From a virus, in IMG/VR virus record IMGVR_UViG_3300025012_000031, positions 91,099 to 155,098 of that record: a stretch of 64,000 nucleotides of DNA; one strand, written 5' to 3'. Shown in pieces: positions 23,624 to 58,341 of the stretch (positions within the stretch are counted from its first letter, which is position 1; each line of letters begins with the position of its first letter). The notes under the pieces are model-generated. The model had not been told where the DNA came from and made no database searches. It was given only the letters and a program-made list of their open reading frames with translations. Made by a program: the position numbers and the translations under genes.

Positions 23624-24814
23624 TTATGCAGATAGTGCCAATTGAAAAGTGTCTCTCAGCATCACCATGTAATTACGATCCTCGCACATGCTTTTCCCGG
23701 GGGAGTCAGAAAGTTTGGCCACGGGTTTTCCATCGCAGTTGACCATCTTCATTACGATAGATAGAGCTTTGCTTGAATCGAAGTCATTGGTCAGATTGGT
23801 GCCGATTCCGAAGACGATGGTTGGAAAGGCCAGACCGAGATGTTGATTATATTCGCCACAGCTAAACATAATCGACGATGCCGTCTCAACATCAAGTCCA
23901 TCACTGAAAATGAATGTCTTTGTGGAGGGATCAACACCAAGTTCAGCAAGACGATTAATCAGTGTCATATACCAAATCATGGTGTTTCCAGAATCATGGC
24001 GGAAGCCGCGGTATCGCTTGGCGTTTTCAACAGAGAGATCGCGACAAAATGCATCAATACCAACGATGTCTGTTAGAGCAACGGCGAGCTTATCGCCATA
24101 CTCATCGTACCAAACATTGAGGGCATTCTTCTGAAAGTCGATGAGTTTGGGAGAAAGAGCCTGATATGCCTGGAACCACTCGTGGGCTTGGGTACCTTTA
24201 CAGGGAATGCCGAGTTTCCAGGCGAGGTAGACGTTAGAGGTGCCACCAAAATTTTTCAGATTGTCTTTGAGATACGAAACGACCTCGTACTGCCAACGAC
24301 GTGAGCGGCGACGGCGGGTTCCCATCTCAATGATCGGCATACCAACCTCATTAGCATCGTTGATCTTTTCACGGAGGTTAAACATTGCACTGGTGTAATC
24401 GGGGTGGGGGTCCTCATTGCGGAAGTAAACCTCGTTAACGATGGCAAGAACCGGGACCTCAAAGAGGATCGTATTGACCCAATGACCTCGGATGCGGATA
24501 ACGATGTCATTCCAATCCCAGGAGATGAAAACCGTCTTCGGATCAAGCTGGAAGTCTTTGAGATAGTCAAGAAAGTCTTCAGCGAAGATATCCAAAGATC
24601 GAAGGTACTCAATTTCTTCGGACTTGAATTTCAATGCACAATACCATCTGATCTGATTCTCGATCAGCTCGATATATTTCGTCAGATTTACTCCTTCCGA
24701 CCGGCACTTAAATGCATAATCAACAATCGGATTTTCTGTCTGATGAAATGCTGCTTGCATCTGTGTGAGTTTGTATAAGTCATTATCTAACAACGAAGGT
24801 TCTAACATAAACAT
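23624..24814 (-). CDS. pncB: nicotinate phosphoribosyltransferase
   Basis: 396 residues, close to full length. Landmarks: DNDLYKLTQMQAAFHQ near the start, EMGTRRRRS, GTSNVYLAWKLGIPCKGTQAHEW, RGFRHDSGNTMIW, FSDGLDVETA and GIGTNLTND. It makes nicotinate mononucleotide from nicotinate and PRPP. Its first codons and ribosome site (GGAG) lie within the 3' end of a GIY-YIG HEG. An older start of the same gene survives upstream at 25487-25540. Confidence 0.95.
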   Translation of the reverse strand: MFMLEPSLLDNDLYKLTQMQAAFHQTENPIVDYAFKCRSEGVNLTKYIELIENQIRWYCALKFKSEEIEYLRSLDIFAEDFLDYLKDFQLDPKTVFISWDWNDIVIRIRGHWVNTILFEVPVLAIVNEVYFRNEDPHPDYTSAMFNLREKINDANEVGMPIIEMGTRRRRSRRWQYEVVSYLKDNLKNFGGTSNVYLAWKLGIPCKGTQAHEWFQAYQALSPKLIDFQKNALNVWYDEYGDKLAVALTDIVGIDAFCRDLSVENAKRYRGFRHDSGNTMIWYMTLINRLAELGVDPSTKTFIFSDGLDVETASSIMFSCGEYNQHLGLAFPTIVFGIGTNLTNDFDSSKALSIVMKMVNCDGKPVAKLSDSPGKSMCEDRNYMVMLRDTFQLALSA

Positions 24815-25443
24815 TTAATGATTCTCCATCCCTTATGTTTCTTATTGTTTGTTAACGTGCGTTGCATATGGGCACGATGAAGGTTATGTTCTCTACAAAA
24901 TGCATTCATTCCAGATGTTGTATTATACAAATTTCCGTCTTGATCTTCAACTAAATAATTCTTTATATTAATTTTTCCGGTTGATGTTGCACTACATTTT
25001 TTTCTTGTTTCATCTGTTGTTATTCTTGCCTTTCTAGCTATCGAAAGATTTGATTTATGTTCCTCTGAAAAGAGGACACCCATCTTCCCTTTACTTATAT
25101 TTTCGCGATGTTCTTTAGAAAACTTTCGACCGATTCTTTTCTCGGCCATCTTTCTTTGCATCTCTTCAGTGAATCCCGAAAAGCCGTCGCCGCCAATAGA
25201 TAAATTATATCCAACGTCTGCATTCCGAGAATTTAATTTCTCTATCCAAAATATCTCTCTTTGGTTTAATTCTTCAAAAGAAAAACATTCTTCGAGAATT
25301 TCTTTAGAAAAACTTTCTTTACCGTATTTCTTTATTGCATGTGATAACACAATACCAGAACCAAGATAATCTTTTCTCTTTGATGATTGTTTCCCAACAT
25401 AAATTTTCCCATTGATATTATTCGTCGTCTTATAAATGAACAT
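24802..25443 (-). CDS. GIY-YIG homing endonuclease with NUMOD3 motifs
   Basis: 213 residues. The N-terminal GIY-YIG-type domain has the IYKTTNNINGKIYVGKQ start, then LGSGIVLSHAIKKYG and the catalytic-Glu region REIFWIEKLNSR. Middle NUMOD3 units (FSKEHRENISKGKMGVLF, SEEHKSNLSIARKAR) and a C-terminal DNA-binding part (AFCREHNLHRAHM) follow. It sits inside the 5' end of pncB. The hairpin and late box at 25440-25476 control it. Confidence 0.92.
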   Translation of the reverse strand: MFIYKTTNNINGKIYVGKQSSKRKDYLGSGIVLSHAIKKYGKESFSKEILEECFSFEELNQREIFWIEKLNSRNADVGYNLSIGGDGFSGFTEEMQRKMAEKRIGRKFSKEHRENISKGKMGVLFSEEHKSNLSIARKARITTDETRKKCSATSTGKINIKNYLVEDQDGNLYNTTSGMNAFCREHNLHRAHMQRTLTNNKKHKGWRIIKCLC

Positions 25444-25476
25444 ACAAACCGCCTTTCTGGTTTGTATGTATTTATA
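25440..25476 (-). promoter_or_regulatory. late promoter overlapping a start-codon hairpin (HEG 24802)
   Basis: Arms 25459-25469 and 25440-25450 pair perfectly over eleven bases. The right arm contains the ATG, and the AAAGGC ribosome site is in the loop. The late box TATAAATA (25469-25476, minus) would start RNA at about 25463, inside the left arm, removing half of the hairpin. Confidence 0.75.
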
Positions 25477-25486
25477 AAAGTCTTTA

Positions 25487-25540
25487 TCAAATTAAGAGTT
25501 TATATAAGTCATTGTCGAGAAGACTGTGTTCAAGTATCAT
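25487..25540 (-). pseudogene. remnant of the original pncB 5' end
   Basis: ATG 25538-25540 with GGAG in place encodes MILEHSLLDNDLYKLLI then stop. Residues SLLDNDLYKL are identical to the functional pncB start (MFMLEPSLLDNDLYKLTQ). The DNA differs at many synonymous positions, except for a conserved core around AATGACTTATA.AAACTC. It directly follows promoter 25582 and precedes the HEG. Confidence 0.85.
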
Positions 25541-25562
25541 TTCTTTCTCCATTTCAAAAGAT

Positions 25563-25602
25563 TATGGGCCTTCCTAAAAACAATATATCAGGAAGGCCCA
25601 TA
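25563..25602 (-). terminator. terminator interleaved with the pncB promoter
   Basis: Thirteen-pair stem (TATGGGCCTTCCT/AGGAAGGCCCATA) with a loop containing TTTTT on the minus strand. It ends the pncA operon after the 149-residue gene. The loop also holds the -10 of promoter 25582. Confidence 0.75.
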
Positions 25603-25610
25603 GATGTAAA
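25582..25610 (-). promoter_or_regulatory. promoter for the HEG/pncB operon
   Basis: Minus strand TTTACA, 17 bases, TATATT. The spacer is the left arm of the terminator hairpin and the -10 lies in its loop. Confidence 0.65.
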
Positions 25611-25613
25611 TGG

Positions 25614-26063
25614 TTAAATTGCGTCGGGGAAAAGTTTATCCCATTCATCGGCGAGCTTGTGCATGGCCTTTTCATCGTTGTCCCAGAAACCGATTTTCTT
25701 CGCCGCGGCATAAAGTCTGTTGCCTTCGGTGAACATTGGTTCTGGTGCAATGACAACTTTACACGGGTCAGAACAACAAGAGCTTCCTTCAAAGAGAAGT
25801 TCGCAATCCGGGAAGTGTACTTTCAATATCTCAATTGCCCGCTGTCTGACATCATCTTCAGTGTCAAACCGCTCTGTCAAATCGCCGACTTTATACGAAT
25901 CCCAGTTGTCTTTTTTGTTGAGGGTGTCAACTTCTTCCCGTGACATCGGTTTTGAAACTTCAACTTTAGAGTGCGGGGAATTGCATGTCAGCGATCCGTA
26001 AAAATGTTCGGCACCTATTGATACACCGGCCCAGGAAGTGATTCTTAGATACACGGCTTTCAT
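25614..26063 (-). CDS. hypothetical protein, 149 aa
   Basis: Contains LLFEGSSCCSDPCKVVIAPEP (Cys cluster) and a helical C-terminus. No family recognised. Second gene after pncA; a co-transcribed partner in NAD metabolism cannot be excluded. Confidence 0.7.
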   Translation of the reverse strand: MKAVYLRITSWAGVSIGAEHFYGSLTCNSPHSKVEVSKPMSREEVDTLNKKDNWDSYKVGDLTERFDTEDDVRQRAIEILKVHFPDCELLFEGSSCCSDPCKVVIAPEPMFTEGNRLYAAAKKIGFWDNDEKAMHKLADEWDKLFPDAI

Positions 26064-40364: not shown

Positions 40365-40802
40365 ATGGAAATGACACTGTCTGAACAGAGGGACAAAATC
40401 ATCGAAAAGTTCCAAGAACTCAAAGCCAAATCGGTTAGTGATGTCAAATTTGACAGGGGTTCGTTGGAAAAATCTTTCGACTGTACGATGAAAATCGCGT
40501 GGTGGATAAACATGCGAACGGAATGGTCTAAGGCTTTTAGGACCTACGAGTACAAGCGAAACAACGCTTGGAAGAAAGCTTATGAGTACTATCGTACGGA
40601 GTATCAACTTAAACTTGAGACGAAAGAAGAGTTTAAGCTTATGGTCGACTCCGATCCTGACTACTTCGAAGCAGCCGAACTAACGAAACTTGTTCAAGAG
40701 ATCATCAACTTCATTGATTCTGTAATTGATAATATGAAAGCCCGGCAGTGGGAGATAAAAAATTGCATGGAGTGGCAAAAGTTTACTAATGGTGTGGGTT
40801 AA
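40365..40802 (+). CDS. uvsY: UvsY-like recombination mediator
   Basis: 145 residues, helical and charged, close to T4 UvsY in length and layout: N-terminal helix, FDCTMKIAWWINMRTEWSKAF, a KKAYEYYRTEY segment, and C-terminal IDSVIDNMKARQWEIKNCMEWQKF, matching the UvsY end (AIKSRGFAIKH). UvsY helps load UvsX on gp32-covered DNA. Its neighbourhood (uvsW, 47/46, uvsX) supports the call. The 3' end overlaps a convergent HEG by 17 bases. Confidence 0.85.
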   Translation: MEMTLSEQRDKIIEKFQELKAKSVSDVKFDRGSLEKSFDCTMKIAWWINMRTEWSKAFRTYEYKRNNAWKKAYEYYRTEYQLKLETKEEFKLMVDSDPDYFEAAELTKLVQEIINFIDSVIDNMKARQWEIKNCMEWQKFTNGVG

Positions 40803-41523
40803 TCTTATATGAGTTTAACGACCAACCTTCTGTTGTTGATTTAAGTGTATGGTCATTTTTATAAACAACAGGACCCGAATTCATAAATTTAGTCAATCTT
40901 GTGGCTGAAATATTGTTATCACTACAGAATTTAACGAAGTTACATTTGAGGGTGAATTTGAATGTAATTCCATTCGGGGATGTCATTTCATATATTTTTG
41001 ATTGTGAATTATTTTCTCCTGAATTTAGTTCTCTTTGTCGTTGTTTATATTCTTCTGTATGCTTCTTTCCGTAAAATGGATTGCTTTCGTTAAATTGATT
41101 CAGTCTACGCCATTTAGATGTTCCTAGTTTACGTCCCTTCATTCTTTCTCTAGTTTCATTTTTGTGCTTCTTACCGAAGAATGGATTTTTACTTCCCGTC
41201 ATCGCCAAACTTATCTTTAATTTCGAAGAATCATCGTGATAAATTGAAGACTTATCTCCTTTCATCAAATTATACCCACCTACAGAGACATGCGTATTAA
41301 ATAATTCAATGAAATGTGCTTCTTTTTCACAAAGATCTTGCCCATTAAATGAAATATAGATAATGTCTTTTCTGAAATTCTCTTTCCCATACTTTTTAAA
41401 AGCATTACGAATTAATATACCAGAACCTAGATACCCGTCATCCAATACAGTGGTTCGATGCTGTCCCACATATGACTTGTTATTAATAATATTTGTTGTT
41501 TTATAGATTAGATGATATTGCAT
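40786..41523 (-). CDS. GIY-YIG homing endonuclease with NUMOD3 motifs
   Basis: 245 residues, on the strand opposite to its neighbours. The N-terminal LIYKTTNIINNKSYVGQH start, LGSGILIRNAFKKYG and KEAHFIELFNTH give the GIY-YIG domain. Two NUMOD3-like units follow (GSKNPFFGKKHKNETRERMKG, here with SNPFYGKKHTEEYKQ). It sits between uvsY and uvsW without visible damage to either. Hairpin and late box at 41535-41570. Confidence 0.9.
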   Translation of the reverse strand: MQYHLIYKTTNIINNKSYVGQHRTTVLDDGYLGSGILIRNAFKKYGKENFRKDIIYISFNGQDLCEKEAHFIELFNTHVSVGGYNLMKGDKSSIYHDDSSKLKISLAMTGSKNPFFGKKHKNETRERMKGRKLGTSKWRRLNQFNESNPFYGKKHTEEYKQRQRELNSGENNSQSKIYEMTSPNGITFKFTLKCNFVKFCSDNNISATRLTKFMNSGPVVYKNDHTLKSTTEGWSLNSYKINPHH

Positions 41524-54522: not shown

Positions 54523-55737
54523 ATGAATTTGAATTTTTTTATTAATGAGTTTCAGCATGATATTTGGAGTGATCACTATCGGTTCAACGGTGAAACAATC
54601 GAAGGAATGATGTGGCGACTTGCTAGTGGTATTCTCCATGATGGCGGTCCCGTAATGCAGCAAGCATTATTTGATGCAATGATGTCCCGCCGCATCTCCT
54701 TTGGTGGTCGTGTTATTGCTAACACAAATACATCATACGGTAAAACGAACTCGTTCAACTGCTACGGTGCACAAAGAGCAAAAAAACCTTATGACTCTAT
54801 TCAGGGAATCTTCACCGATCTTCTGAATGCCGCGGAGATTTTGAAAACAGAAGGTGGGATCGGTTTTAACTTCAACCATATTCGGCCACGTGGTACACTC
54901 ATCAAAGGTGTACGTGTCGGGACCCCGGGTGTTGTTTCATTCATGGACATTTATAATGTCAGTGCAGACGTCATTACTCGTGGTGATTCCGGTGAATTAC
55001 ACCAAGATGACGGGAAACCAACAAAAAAGAAAATCCGCAAGGGTGCACAAATGGCGATGCTTGATTGCCGCCACCCCGAGATCATTGATTTCATCGAGGC
55101 CAAGAAGATTCCTGGTCGTCTGACGAAATTCAATATGTCAGTTATCGTCACCGATAAATTTATGGAAGCCGTCGCTGCCGATGATGACTGGGAACTATGG
55201 TTCCCCGATATCCGTTATGAAAAATATGACGAGCTGTGGGATGGTGATTTTGATAAATGGGAAGAGGCTGGACTTCCGAAATATGTTTACAAAACAATAA
55301 AGGCATGCGATCTCTGGGAACTTCTTCTCAAAAATACATATACACGCAATGAACCCGGTATCTATTTCATCGATAGCGCAAATCGTTTTAATAATCTCAT
55401 TTATTATCAGAAAGTAACCGGAACTAATCCCTGTGTTGTTGGGAACACCGTTGTTAAGACTGATGGTGGCGATATTACAATCCAAGAATTATGTGATCGT
55501 TATAAAGCTGGTGATAAATTTAAAGCATTAACAATGAACACCGAAACACTTTGTCTTGAATACGAAAACATCGTATTTGCTGATAAAACAAGAAATAACA
55601 CGGATGTTATTAAAATTGAGTTGGATGATGACATGATTCTTGAATTAACACCAGACCATAAAGTGTTTACGGAAAATCGCGGTTACGTCGAGGCGGCATT
55701 ATTAAACGATGACGATATTTTACTGCTTGTAGATTAA
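54523..55737 (+). CDS. nrdJ: ribonucleotide reductase (class II-like) N-half fused to N-intein
   Basis: 404 residues. Residues 1-303 are the N-terminal part of an adenosylcobalamin-type ribonucleotide reductase (RISFGGRVIAN, SFNCYGAQ, KTEGGIGFNFNHIRP, DCRHPEIIDFIEAKK, ending TGTNP). Residue 304 is Cys1 of an intein N-fragment (CVVGNTVVKTDGG) with block B TPDHKVF and the end ENRGYVEAALLNDDD. The intein fragment ends in a stop, so it must act in trans with the C-fragment at 56512. Similar to the NrdJ-type split inteins known from phage metagenomes. Confidence 0.93.
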   Translation: MNLNFFINEFQHDIWSDHYRFNGETIEGMMWRLASGILHDGGPVMQQALFDAMMSRRISFGGRVIANTNTSYGKTNSFNCYGAQRAKKPYDSIQGIFTDLLNAAEILKTEGGIGFNFNHIRPRGTLIKGVRVGTPGVVSFMDIYNVSADVITRGDSGELHQDDGKPTKKKIRKGAQMAMLDCRHPEIIDFIEAKKIPGRLTKFNMSVIVTDKFMEAVAADDDWELWFPDIRYEKYDELWDGDFDKWEEAGLPKYVYKTIKACDLWELLLKNTYTRNEPGIYFIDSANRFNNLIYYQKVTGTNPCVVGNTVVKTDGGDITIQELCDRYKAGDKFKALTMNTETLCLEYENIVFADKTRNNTDVIKIELDDDMILELTPDHKVFTENRGYVEAALLNDDDILLLVD

Positions 55738-55751
55738 ATATCAAAAAACCA

Positions 55752-55797
55752 CATGGATTTATAAATATTTCTAAAAAGGAGTATTTATGAATCCATG
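55752..55797 (+). promoter_or_regulatory. late promoter inside a start-codon hairpin (HEG 55787)
   Basis: Arms 55752-55767 and 55782-55797 pair over all 16 positions (one G-T). The right arm contains the ATG, and the AAAAGGAG ribosome site is in the loop. The late box TATAAATA (55760-55767) is part of the left arm, so late RNA starts in the loop and cannot form the hairpin. Confidence 0.8.
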
Positions 55798-56542
55798 GAA
55801 TAAAGATACACTTAGATTTGACTTTGATACAACACATAAAGATGAATTGATTAAATTTTATAAAAATGTAGTTTCGTATCCAAAGGCAAAAAGAAAACAG
55901 GCACTGGTTGATACAAAACGCCCCACAGAAGAAACGATAAAATATCTAAAAAGTGTATATGATGATGGATATGGTTTAAAAGTTATCGCTAGGGAAATCG
56001 GCCTTACATATTCTAGAATACGATCATTATTCGTCTATTTAGAAATAGATATCAGACGTGGTTATGACATATCGACATCAAAAACAGATGAATTCCGTAG
56101 TGCTCGTGTTAAAGGCAATAAGAATCCTTGGTATGATTGGACAAACAGAATACCAGAGATGCATGCATCTACGTCAAAAGGAATACAGGGATATTTTAAA
56201 AGGAAAAATGGCCAATTCGTATGGTTAAGATCTACATGGGAATTCATTTATGCAAAATGGATTGATGATAAAAACATTAATTGGGAGTTTGAAGGAGAAC
56301 ACTTTCATTTATCAAGCGGTGAAAGTTACCGCCCCGATTTTTCAATTTTTGATGATAATGGTCAACTTCTATACATCGTCGAGGTTAAGGGTTTTTTTAA
56401 GAATAGAATGTATAAAATTGATTTGATGAAGAAGGACTATCCTAACATTAAAATGATCGTTATACACGACATATCTAAATATTGTAAAAATTATCACGAG
56501 GAGCTTAAAATATGGAAACAGGAACGAATCCTGCTAAAGTAA
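55787..56542 (+). CDS. homing endonuclease, PD-(D/E)XK-like, in the split intein gap
   Basis: 251 residues. Middle: IAREIGLTYSRIRSLFVYLE (helix-turn-helix-like). C-terminal nuclease part: VWLRSTWEFIYAKWIDD, then YRPDFSIFDDNG and IVEVKGFF, giving the D ... E-x-K pattern. The gene lies exactly between the N- and C-intein halves of the reductase and overlaps the latter by 31 bases. It replaces the usual in-frame intein endonuclease by a freestanding one. Confidence 0.85.
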   Translation: MNPWNKDTLRFDFDTTHKDELIKFYKNVVSYPKAKRKQALVDTKRPTEETIKYLKSVYDDGYGLKVIAREIGLTYSRIRSLFVYLEIDIRRGYDISTSKTDEFRSARVKGNKNPWYDWTNRIPEMHASTSKGIQGYFKRKNGQFVWLRSTWEFIYAKWIDDKNINWEFEGEHFHLSSGESYRPDFSIFDDNGQLLYIVEVKGFFKNRMYKIDLMKKDYPNIKMIVIHDISKYCKNYHEELKIWKQERILLK

Positions 56543-58341
56543 TTAGAAAACGAATTAAAAGAATAACCGTCATTGAAAATCAGGATGTCTATGATATTCA
56601 AACAACAACAAATCATAACTTTTTTGCTAATAATATATTAGTTCATAATTGCGGAGAGATAGCAATGTTGGCTGATGCCGGTATTGTCGAGATTGACGGC
56701 GTCATCTATGATCACCTTGGTGATATCTGTAACCTCGGGCATATCAATGTACCAATGTACTATGATAAGAATAAAGGATTTGACTGGGAAACATATGCGG
56801 CCGATATTGCTCTCCTCGTCCGTTCACTTGACTCTATCATTGATGTTTCTGGTTATCCGCTCCCGGGAATCGAGGCATCGGCACAACTTCGCCGTAAGAT
56901 CGGTTGTGGTCTCCTCGGTTACGGTTCTCTGTTGATGATGATGGGTTTCAAGTATGGATCACGGGATGCAAACGCATTCACACAACAACTAATGGCAACA
57001 TATGCAAATGCGGCCTATCATGCATCGGCCATGCTTGCTAAGGAGAAAGGTTCATTTAAACTCTTTGATGTAGATCTAATTTTTAACGGTGGGTTCGTCA
57101 AAAATTCGGGCGTTCTTACAAAGAACACTCTTGATGCAATTCGTCATTATGGTCTTCGTAACTCCCAACTGCTAACCGCCGCGCCGACGGGAACTACGGG
57201 AATTCTTATGGGGCTTGTATCAGGTGGAATTGAGCCAGTCTTTGATCTTGACTACATTCGTTGGGTAACTATTACCTATAAGATACATGAGGAACTAAGA
57301 GGACTGGCTTACCCTGATGTGACAAAGGGTGAATGGTTTGAAACGAAAGACTTCGTTGCAGAAAAAGTTGGCGATGACGATGTACTGATGTCAACATGCC
57401 GCAATTATTACTTTGACAAAAATCGTGGTCTCGTCAAGAAGACGGAATGTATGGACTTTGGTTGGTTGTGGTGTAAAGAGAATCTTTCAGTTGAAGAGAT
57501 GGAAAGATATAAAGCCAATGGCGCATTCACGACGGCAATGGACCTCACCGTTGAAGAACACATTGACCCGTTTACCATCTTCTCCTCACACATCGATAAC
57601 TCTATTTCCAAGACTGTTAACCTTCGTGCTGATTATCCTTATGAAGAGTTTGACCAATTATTCCGTAAGATGTGGCGGGACGGCGTAAGGGGTATCACAA
57701 CCTACCGTGAAGGTACCATGATGTCGGTACTTGAAACGAAAAAGAGTAATGATGGAAGTTCAATCAAAATGCAACAGCATGAATTTTTTGATTCGTGGAA
57801 AGATCACCAGGATGGACATATTTTCCTTGATGATGTTTCGCTCCCAGATGAATATCCGATGAAGGGTTACAAGATCAAGTCCGAAGGTAAAAAGTGGTAT
57901 GTTTCGGCTGCATTCAAAGATCACGAAATGAAACGCCCCTTCGCTATCTTCGTACAGACAAATAACCGCGAGCCTGATGTCAATACCCATGCTTGTATTG
58001 AGGCGCTAACGGAAATTGCAAAGAATGCCGGTATTGCTCCACATATCATTGATGATAACGATTCAAAGATGATCGGTAACACAAATGTTACAAAGATCGC
58101 AAGGACGCTGAGCTTATTGCTTCGTCATAACATACCAATCATTGACATTATTAAAACTCTTGATACACTTGATCTACCGATCGGTTCTTTTATTTTCAGA
58201 ATCAAAAAATTCATTGCGAATTTTATCGATGAAGATGATCTGATGGCTGAAATGACATGTCCCGAATGCGGCGGTCATGAATTCAAAATGTCAGAGGGTT
58301 GTCCGATCTGTAAAACATGTAGTTGGACAAAGTGCGGTTAA
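56512..58341 (+). CDS. nrdJ: C-intein fused to ribonucleotide reductase C-half
   Basis: 609 residues. Residues 1-46 are the intein C-fragment, with block F VYDIQTTTNHNFFANN and block G ending in VHN. Residue 47, Cys+1, begins CGEIAML, the family's active-site NPCGE motif: the splice junction lies directly before the expected thiyl-radical Cys. The rest includes APTGTTGILMG and ends with a zinc-finger-like tail (CPECGGHEF, CPICKTCSW), as in class II enzymes. GAGGAG ribosome site. Needs trans-splicing for a whole 866-residue enzyme. Confidence 0.93.
   Translation: METGTNPAKVIRKRIKRITVIENQDVYDIQTTTNHNFFANNILVHNCGEIAMLADAGIVEIDGVIYDHLGDICNLGHINVPMYYDKNKGFDWETYAADIALLVRSLDSIIDVSGYPLPGIEASAQLRRKIGCGLLGYGSLLMMMGFKYGSRDANAFTQQLMATYANAAYHASAMLAKEKGSFKLFDVDLIFNGGFVKNSGVLTKNTLDAIRHYGLRNSQLLTAAPTGTTGILMGLVSGGIEPVFDLDYIRWVTITYKIHEELRGLAYPDVTKGEWFETKDFVAEKVGDDDVLMSTCRNYYFDKNRGLVKKTECMDFGWLWCKENLSVEEMERYKANGAFTTAMDLTVEEHIDPFTIFSSHIDNSISKTVNLRADYPYEEFDQLFRKMWRDGVRGITTYREGTMMSVLETKKSNDGSSIKMQQHEFFDSWKDHQDGHIFLDDVSLPDEYPMKGYKIKSEGKKWYVSAAFKDHEMKRPFAIFVQTNNREPDVNTHACIEALTEIAKNAGIAPHIIDDNDSKMIGNTNVTKIARTLSLLLRHNIPIIDIIKTLDTLDLPIGSFIFRIKKFIANFIDEDDLMAEMTCPECGGHEFKMSEGCPICKTCSWTKCG

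Follow-up and report, generated by a model that had tools for sequence, protein, structure and literature searches.

The window analysed here, the final 64 kb of a virus record 155,098 bases long, carries on its minus strand a nicotinate phosphoribosyltransferase gene (pncB), a free-standing homing endonuclease gene (HEG) of the GIY-YIG type directly ahead of it and, further upstream, a second and truncated copy of the pncB start. The features of the locus are listed below in the order of their coordinates in the window.

23624-24814, minus strand: working pncB, nicotinate phosphoribosyltransferase of 396 aa, beginning MFMLEPSLLDNDLYKLTQ (PF17767, PF04095)
24767-24814, minus strand: rebuilt pncB 5' end, differently spelled, MFMLEPSLLDNDLYKL (read from the sequence; codon usage weakly HEG-like)
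24802-25443, minus strand: intact GIY-YIG HEG, 213 aa (PF01541 above cut-off)
24824-24827, minus strand: GGAG serving the rebuilt pncB start, within the final HEG codons (read from the sequence)
25441-25468, minus strand: hairpin CATACAAACC-agaaaggc-GGTTTGTATG (-16 kcal/mol, z -5.6)
25469-25476, minus strand: TATAAATA, predicted T4-type late-promoter-like box (9 in the window versus 3.3 expected)
25471-25487, minus strand: third and degenerate target copy, ATAAAGACTTTTATAAA, matching ATAATGACTTATAYAAA at 15/17, candidate operator (3 matches in 64 kb versus 0.14 expected)
25487-25540, minus strand: dead stub left by the 5' end of the original pncB, reading MILEHSLLDNDLYKLLI-stop, its first 15 codons (25540-25496) being pncB-derived
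25547-25550, minus strand: GGAG, the ribosome-binding site that belonged to the original pncB start (read from the sequence)

The working gene matches PF17767 and PF04095 well above cut-off. The first-pass annotation had placed above the HEG a ribosome site and a start encoding a match to the pncB start, and both are indeed present, the start at 25540-25487 with GGAG ahead at normal spacing. Its 17-codon scar has to be shortened: codons 1-15 match the NAPRTase N-terminal motif through AAACTC, the sequence beyond is unrelated, and the last two codons (LI) together with the stop derive from the inserted element. The proposal that the working pncB takes its GGAG from the last HEG codons proved correct, as the pncB ATG lies inside these codons, 9 nt after the GGAG (24827-24824), and the end of the HEG and the start of pncB share 13 nt. 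Over 13 aligned codons of the stub and of the rebuilt start (LEHSLLDNDLYKL and LEPSLLDNDLYKL), six are identical, six synonymous and one nonsynonymous, amounting to 67% nucleotide identity plus one extra codon; 17 of the final 18 nt agree between the copies (AATGACTTATAYAAACTC). Codon usage separates the two weakly, the rebuilt start falling in the top 8% of native gene starts. Considered as proof of a foreign pncB 5' end, it is suggestive at most, because native gene starts are AT-rich as well.

The HEG product matches PF01541 with 25.6 bits for a cut-off of 22.6 and the homing endonuclease family phrog_314 with an E-value of 1.7e-45. A search of 24600-25800 against Rfam returned no intron, and the available space is too small for a ribozyme; the HEG is thus free-standing, outside any self-splicing intron or intein. 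Its start lies about 44 nt beyond the stub stop, and the interval holds the TATAAATA box and the hairpin, whose loop contains the HEG ribosome site AGAAAGG and whose stem contains the HEG ATG. The HEG is probably made late from this predicted box, with the hairpin hiding the ribosome site. In the folded excerpt of a second HEG, a hairpin like that of the window was not significant. The third, degenerate copy of the pncB target overlaps the late-promoter-like box, and similar sequences precede the HEGs of two other pncB loci (L083 and L076). From this resemblance, a role of the third copy as a HEG operator may be proposed as a speculation.

pncB loci with and without a homing endonuclease

In 80 pncB loci from IMG/VR and five from annotated phage records, we searched the upstream sequence for peptides similar to the N-terminus of the pncB in question. 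The window scored 58, L076 45 and L087, which shares its contig with L012, 38; among HEG-free loci the highest score was 35. The motif D-x-D-L-Y-K occurs upstream only in the window, L087/L012, L076 and L083 (about 127 kb and 87 pncB entries), all of them HEG-bearing; the L083 stub was added on inspecting the HEG-bearing loci. The first-pass annotation had suggested looking for both starts in relatives lacking the HEG. A stub is present in four of the five distant phages whose pncB directly follows a HEG, for none of the 81 other entries, and the arrangement of stub, HEG and rebuilt start is therefore restricted to HEG-bearing pncB loci. In L039, the fifth of these phages, a clear stub was not found ahead of the HEG.

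The pncB proteins of L087, L076 and L083 are only about 37-44% identical to that of the window, and all four stubs break at the LDxDLYK codons. Stub and rebuilt copies are 54-86% identical over short stretches, with synonymous to nonsynonymous differences of 6:1 in the window, 3:0 in L087 and 3:1 in L076. The working pncB of L083 starts 45 nt past the HEG, and its start is unlike the stub. The stubs of L087, L076 and L083 have lost the start codon and differ in length, and stub translation is therefore not conserved.

The C-terminal half of the endonuclease (A3) aligns well across all five pncB HEGs, and the GIY-YIG half is of a different type in L076 and L083; a NUMOD3 match above cut-off was obtained among the five for L039 only. 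A scan with the shared half recovered the pncB HEG loci and weaker relatives elsewhere, including L173 and L175, where the HEG lies upstream of a gene other than pncB. One putative DNA-binding module combined with two catalytic halves, and the same codons involved each time, point to the C-terminal half as the part which aims the enzyme. As a separate observation, the phage of L087 bears a second GIY-YIG HEG (L087:6868-7464) upstream of pncA, and HEGs seem to lie often beside genes of NAD salvage.

Duplicated ends at other genes

The only clean comparison of an empty and an occupied site comes from two cultured Bacillus phages, the HEG-free relatives at pncB being distant. In 015DV002 a HEG lies at the Holliday junction resolvase gene, and the sister phage 000TH009 lacks it. 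The 015DV002 stub ATGGGCAAAAAATCGAAAACTAAAGGCGCA is identical to the native 000TH009 start (30/30 nt), as are 59 of the 60 preceding nucleotides. The rebuilt resolvase start agrees with 000TH009 at 19 of 30 nt and the following 30 nt at 97%. The original start thus remained in place, and the foreign 5' end came with the HEG.

The thymidylate synthase gene (thyA) shows an exchange of motif. Nine (seven distinct) of 80 thyA loci have a HEG directly upstream, and all nine read ETRNG near the N-terminus, for 60 DRTGT, 10 ETRNG and one other among the HEG-free loci (Fisher 4.5e-7, the loci not being independent). Of the six peptides used in the search, one was taken from the rebuilt N-terminus and enriched the HEG-bearing loci, a bias which cannot explain that none of the 60 DRTGT loci has a HEG. 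The stubs read DRTGT in L225, L219 and L127 and break at this conserved motif, and for most HEG-bearing loci the nearest HEG-free neighbour of the gene body is DRTGT-type.

These comparisons bear on the origin of the replacement ends; for the two pncB copies, the first-pass annotation had proposed different alleles. At thyA, as at the resolvase gene, the evidence argues strongly for an end from another lineage. This origin is seen directly in the analogous Bacillus pair; at pncB itself we infer it from the excess of synonymous differences and the weak codon usage signal, as the collections hold no close HEG-free relative. A single-protein scan with the window pncB found no relative, and a DNA search of annotated phages gave HEG matches only, with no close HEG-free pncB relative.

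To survey the arrangement more widely, the translated flanks on both sides were compared for 80 IMG/VR relatives of the window HEG. Random flank pairings reached 39, apart from one at 77 which we read as two related thyA loci. Cases above this control at the 5' end comprise thyA (L127, L144-146), NAMPT-type nadV (L104, PF18127), a glycosyltransferase gene (L126 group) and an unknown short protein (L106); at the 3' end they comprise L130 and thyA in L166. Altogether, usable flanks were available for 57 distinct HEG clusters, and in nine of these, pncB loci included, a gene end is present on both sides of the HEG; the nine contain L088 (score 38) and L089 (by eye), counted because of the pncB evidence. 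Among HEG loci from annotated phages the duplicated end was absent in 14 of 15, and most HEGs therefore do not replace ends.

Several loci were set aside. L101 (score 62) has thyA split by the HEG and was left out of the end-replacement count. L226, L229 and L218 reached scores indicating duplicated thyA ends and were not counted, no GIY-YIG gene having matched upstream. The intervening ORFs were listed for two of them: in L226:1876-2517 and L229:1812-2066, an unrelated ORF lying directly or shortly upstream of thyA begins with a copy of the thyA N-terminus, again with no GIY-YIG match. In L166:1-1200 the thyA 3' end precedes the HEG and a second thyA C-terminal remnant (QSHPTIKSPLSN) follows about 176 nt after, as in a 3' form.

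Five further relatives of the HEG lie elsewhere in the same virus record. At one of them (C1:56356-55514) the mirror 3' form is found: the upstream radical-SAM gene ends SPVNESDITRKNNIGPGIIKGNNLV-stop, and MNDISIANNMGEGIIKGRNIV-stop, a remnant of the old radical-SAM 3' end, lies at the stop of the HEG. This radical-SAM gene (G000:C1:55000-60500, L183) has a GIY-YIG HEG on each side, of which the downstream one replaced the 3' end. Within the window, a relative with NUMOD3 motifs (40786-41523, minus strand) sits between opposite-strand genes, where a duplicated end was not found. Also in the window, the ribonucleotide reductase large subunit is split over two ORFs (54523-58341, plus strand), the first ending in an intein-like domain (PF14890, below cut-off), with a 251-aa endonuclease-like ORF between them (55787-56542, phrog_945). 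The arrangement is suggestive of a fractured gene associated with a split intein and a free-standing endonuclease.

The proposed mechanism and its alternatives

Our preferred reading, to which we give a probability of about 0.83, is that a free-standing GIY-YIG HEG invades genes by end replacement, homing together with a divergent and probably uncuttable end. In a mixed infection, a HEG-free pncB would be cut at the conserved LLDxDLYK codons near its start, which the enzyme most likely recognises. Repair off the HEG-bearing phage would copy the HEG with the adjoining pncB 5' end, and recombination would join the incoming 5' end back to the gene body of the recipient, whose own start would stay upstream as a stub reaching to the cut region, as is directly seen for the resolvase. 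The new 5' end, with nearly the same residues in other codons or with another motif at thyA, would restore the enzyme, and its different spelling would probably render the rebuilt site uncuttable.

Recurring at several genes of unrelated phages, the arrangement suggests a natural selfish element of a "cut and repair" kind. We lean, with some reserve, towards the wider view that home-and-rescue occurs naturally in many GIY-YIG HEGs of phages, which would target ultra-conserved codons at one or the other end of metabolic genes (pncB, nadV, thyA, a resolvase) and supply a cleavage-resistant replacement. Since the HEG would carry the resistant end, the host gene would be forced into a chimera, and thyA would even swap DRTGT for ETRNG.

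The strongest competitor, possible and in our judgement rather unlikely, accepts end replacement and sees in the recoding a means of stability, the low identity preventing a recombination that would delete the HEG, instead of a block to cleavage. A direct repeat flanking a HEG would favour its loss in phage recombination, and the limited identity of the copies over short stretches fits this idea; however, the thyA change falls on the DRTGT motif where the stubs break, as site protection predicts.

We regard as improbable that ordinary recombination duplicated the pncB start when the HEG landed and that the copies drifted in place, with no second allele. The near-identity of the last 18 nt is what a small junction duplication would give, but a dead copy should then gain nonsynonymous changes, whereas the differences are mostly synonymous at all three loci counted. 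Moreover, it is the working resolvase copy of 015DV002 that differs from the sister phage, at 11 of 30 nt, the stub still matching it throughout, and the working thyA copy carries a different conserved motif.

There is very little probability, in our view, that the stub is retained as a functional leader ORF or as a HEG operator. The operator-like third target copy overlapping the late-promoter-like box and the self-repression of I-TevI at an operator resembling its homing site (PMC2988022) would agree with the latter, but stubs of unequal lengths deprived of a start codon in L087, L076 and L083 speak against the former. Finally, a group I intron or a bypass element joining stub and gene in RNA or protein hardly deserves credence: introns often house HEGs and the stub has its own ribosome site, yet the stub stop and the HEG start are only about 44 nt apart, the HEG runs into the pncB start, the Rfam search gave no intron, and the joined protein would repeat about 14 residues.

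The accepted view is that a HEG in coding sequence depends on an intron or an intein, and that HEGs otherwise sit between genes. The end replacement proposed here would offer them another route, which consists in breaking a gene and carrying its repair. It would explain the chimeric starts of phage enzymes, and start-site annotation beside HEGs may conceal dead stubs. Cultured phages provide paired empty and occupied sites.

Comparison with known systems

In the open-licence papers searched, duplicated gene ends on both sides of a HEG were not reported for any phage, nor did we find a report of the 5' form, or of either form in phages. The nearest described system is that of fungal mitochondrial mobile ORFs, which replace gene 3' ends, leave the native end behind and show mostly synonymous differences; the cases are Allomyces atp6, Glomus atp6, atp9, cox2 and nad3, and Tremella (PMC3630166, PMC7315562). 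Both systems have a free-standing endonuclease ORF in a gene, a foreign end in phase and the native end on the far side. The duplicated end across the endonuclease ORF, the dead native copy and the divergent replacement are all found at pncB. The fungal elements differ in being mitochondrial and mostly LAGLIDADG and in replacing the downstream (3') part, whereas the phage elements are GIY-YIG and replace mainly the 5' end, supplying a new start codon and ribosome site. A 3' replacement as in fungi is absent from pncB, which has the 5' form, and is seen at the radical-SAM gene of the same genome.

The free-standing HEGs of phage T4 (segA, segF, segG, mobE) are GIY-YIG or HNH, lie beside a conserved target gene and are controlled by late promoters and by hairpins hiding the ribosome site (PMC2988022). 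They differ in sitting between genes, with no duplicated gene end described in that review, whereas the HEG studied here lies inside a coding region whose end it replaced. The upstream signals of the window HEG resemble the controls of T4 I-TevI, segB and mobE (PMC2988022). With I-TevI of the td intron it shares the TATAAATA box, the hairpin over the ribosome site and a homing-site-like sequence at the promoter; I-TevI is intron-borne, whereas here there is no intron and the putative operator is a resemblance in sequence.

The last parallel is with engineered home-and-rescue and cleave-and-rescue drives, which cleave a required gene and restore it from a recoded copy that they bring along (PMC7968924). 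These drives are synthetic and Cas9-based, and the phage element would be their natural analogue. End replacement by phage HEGs may thus represent a natural counterpart to recoded-rescue gene drives.
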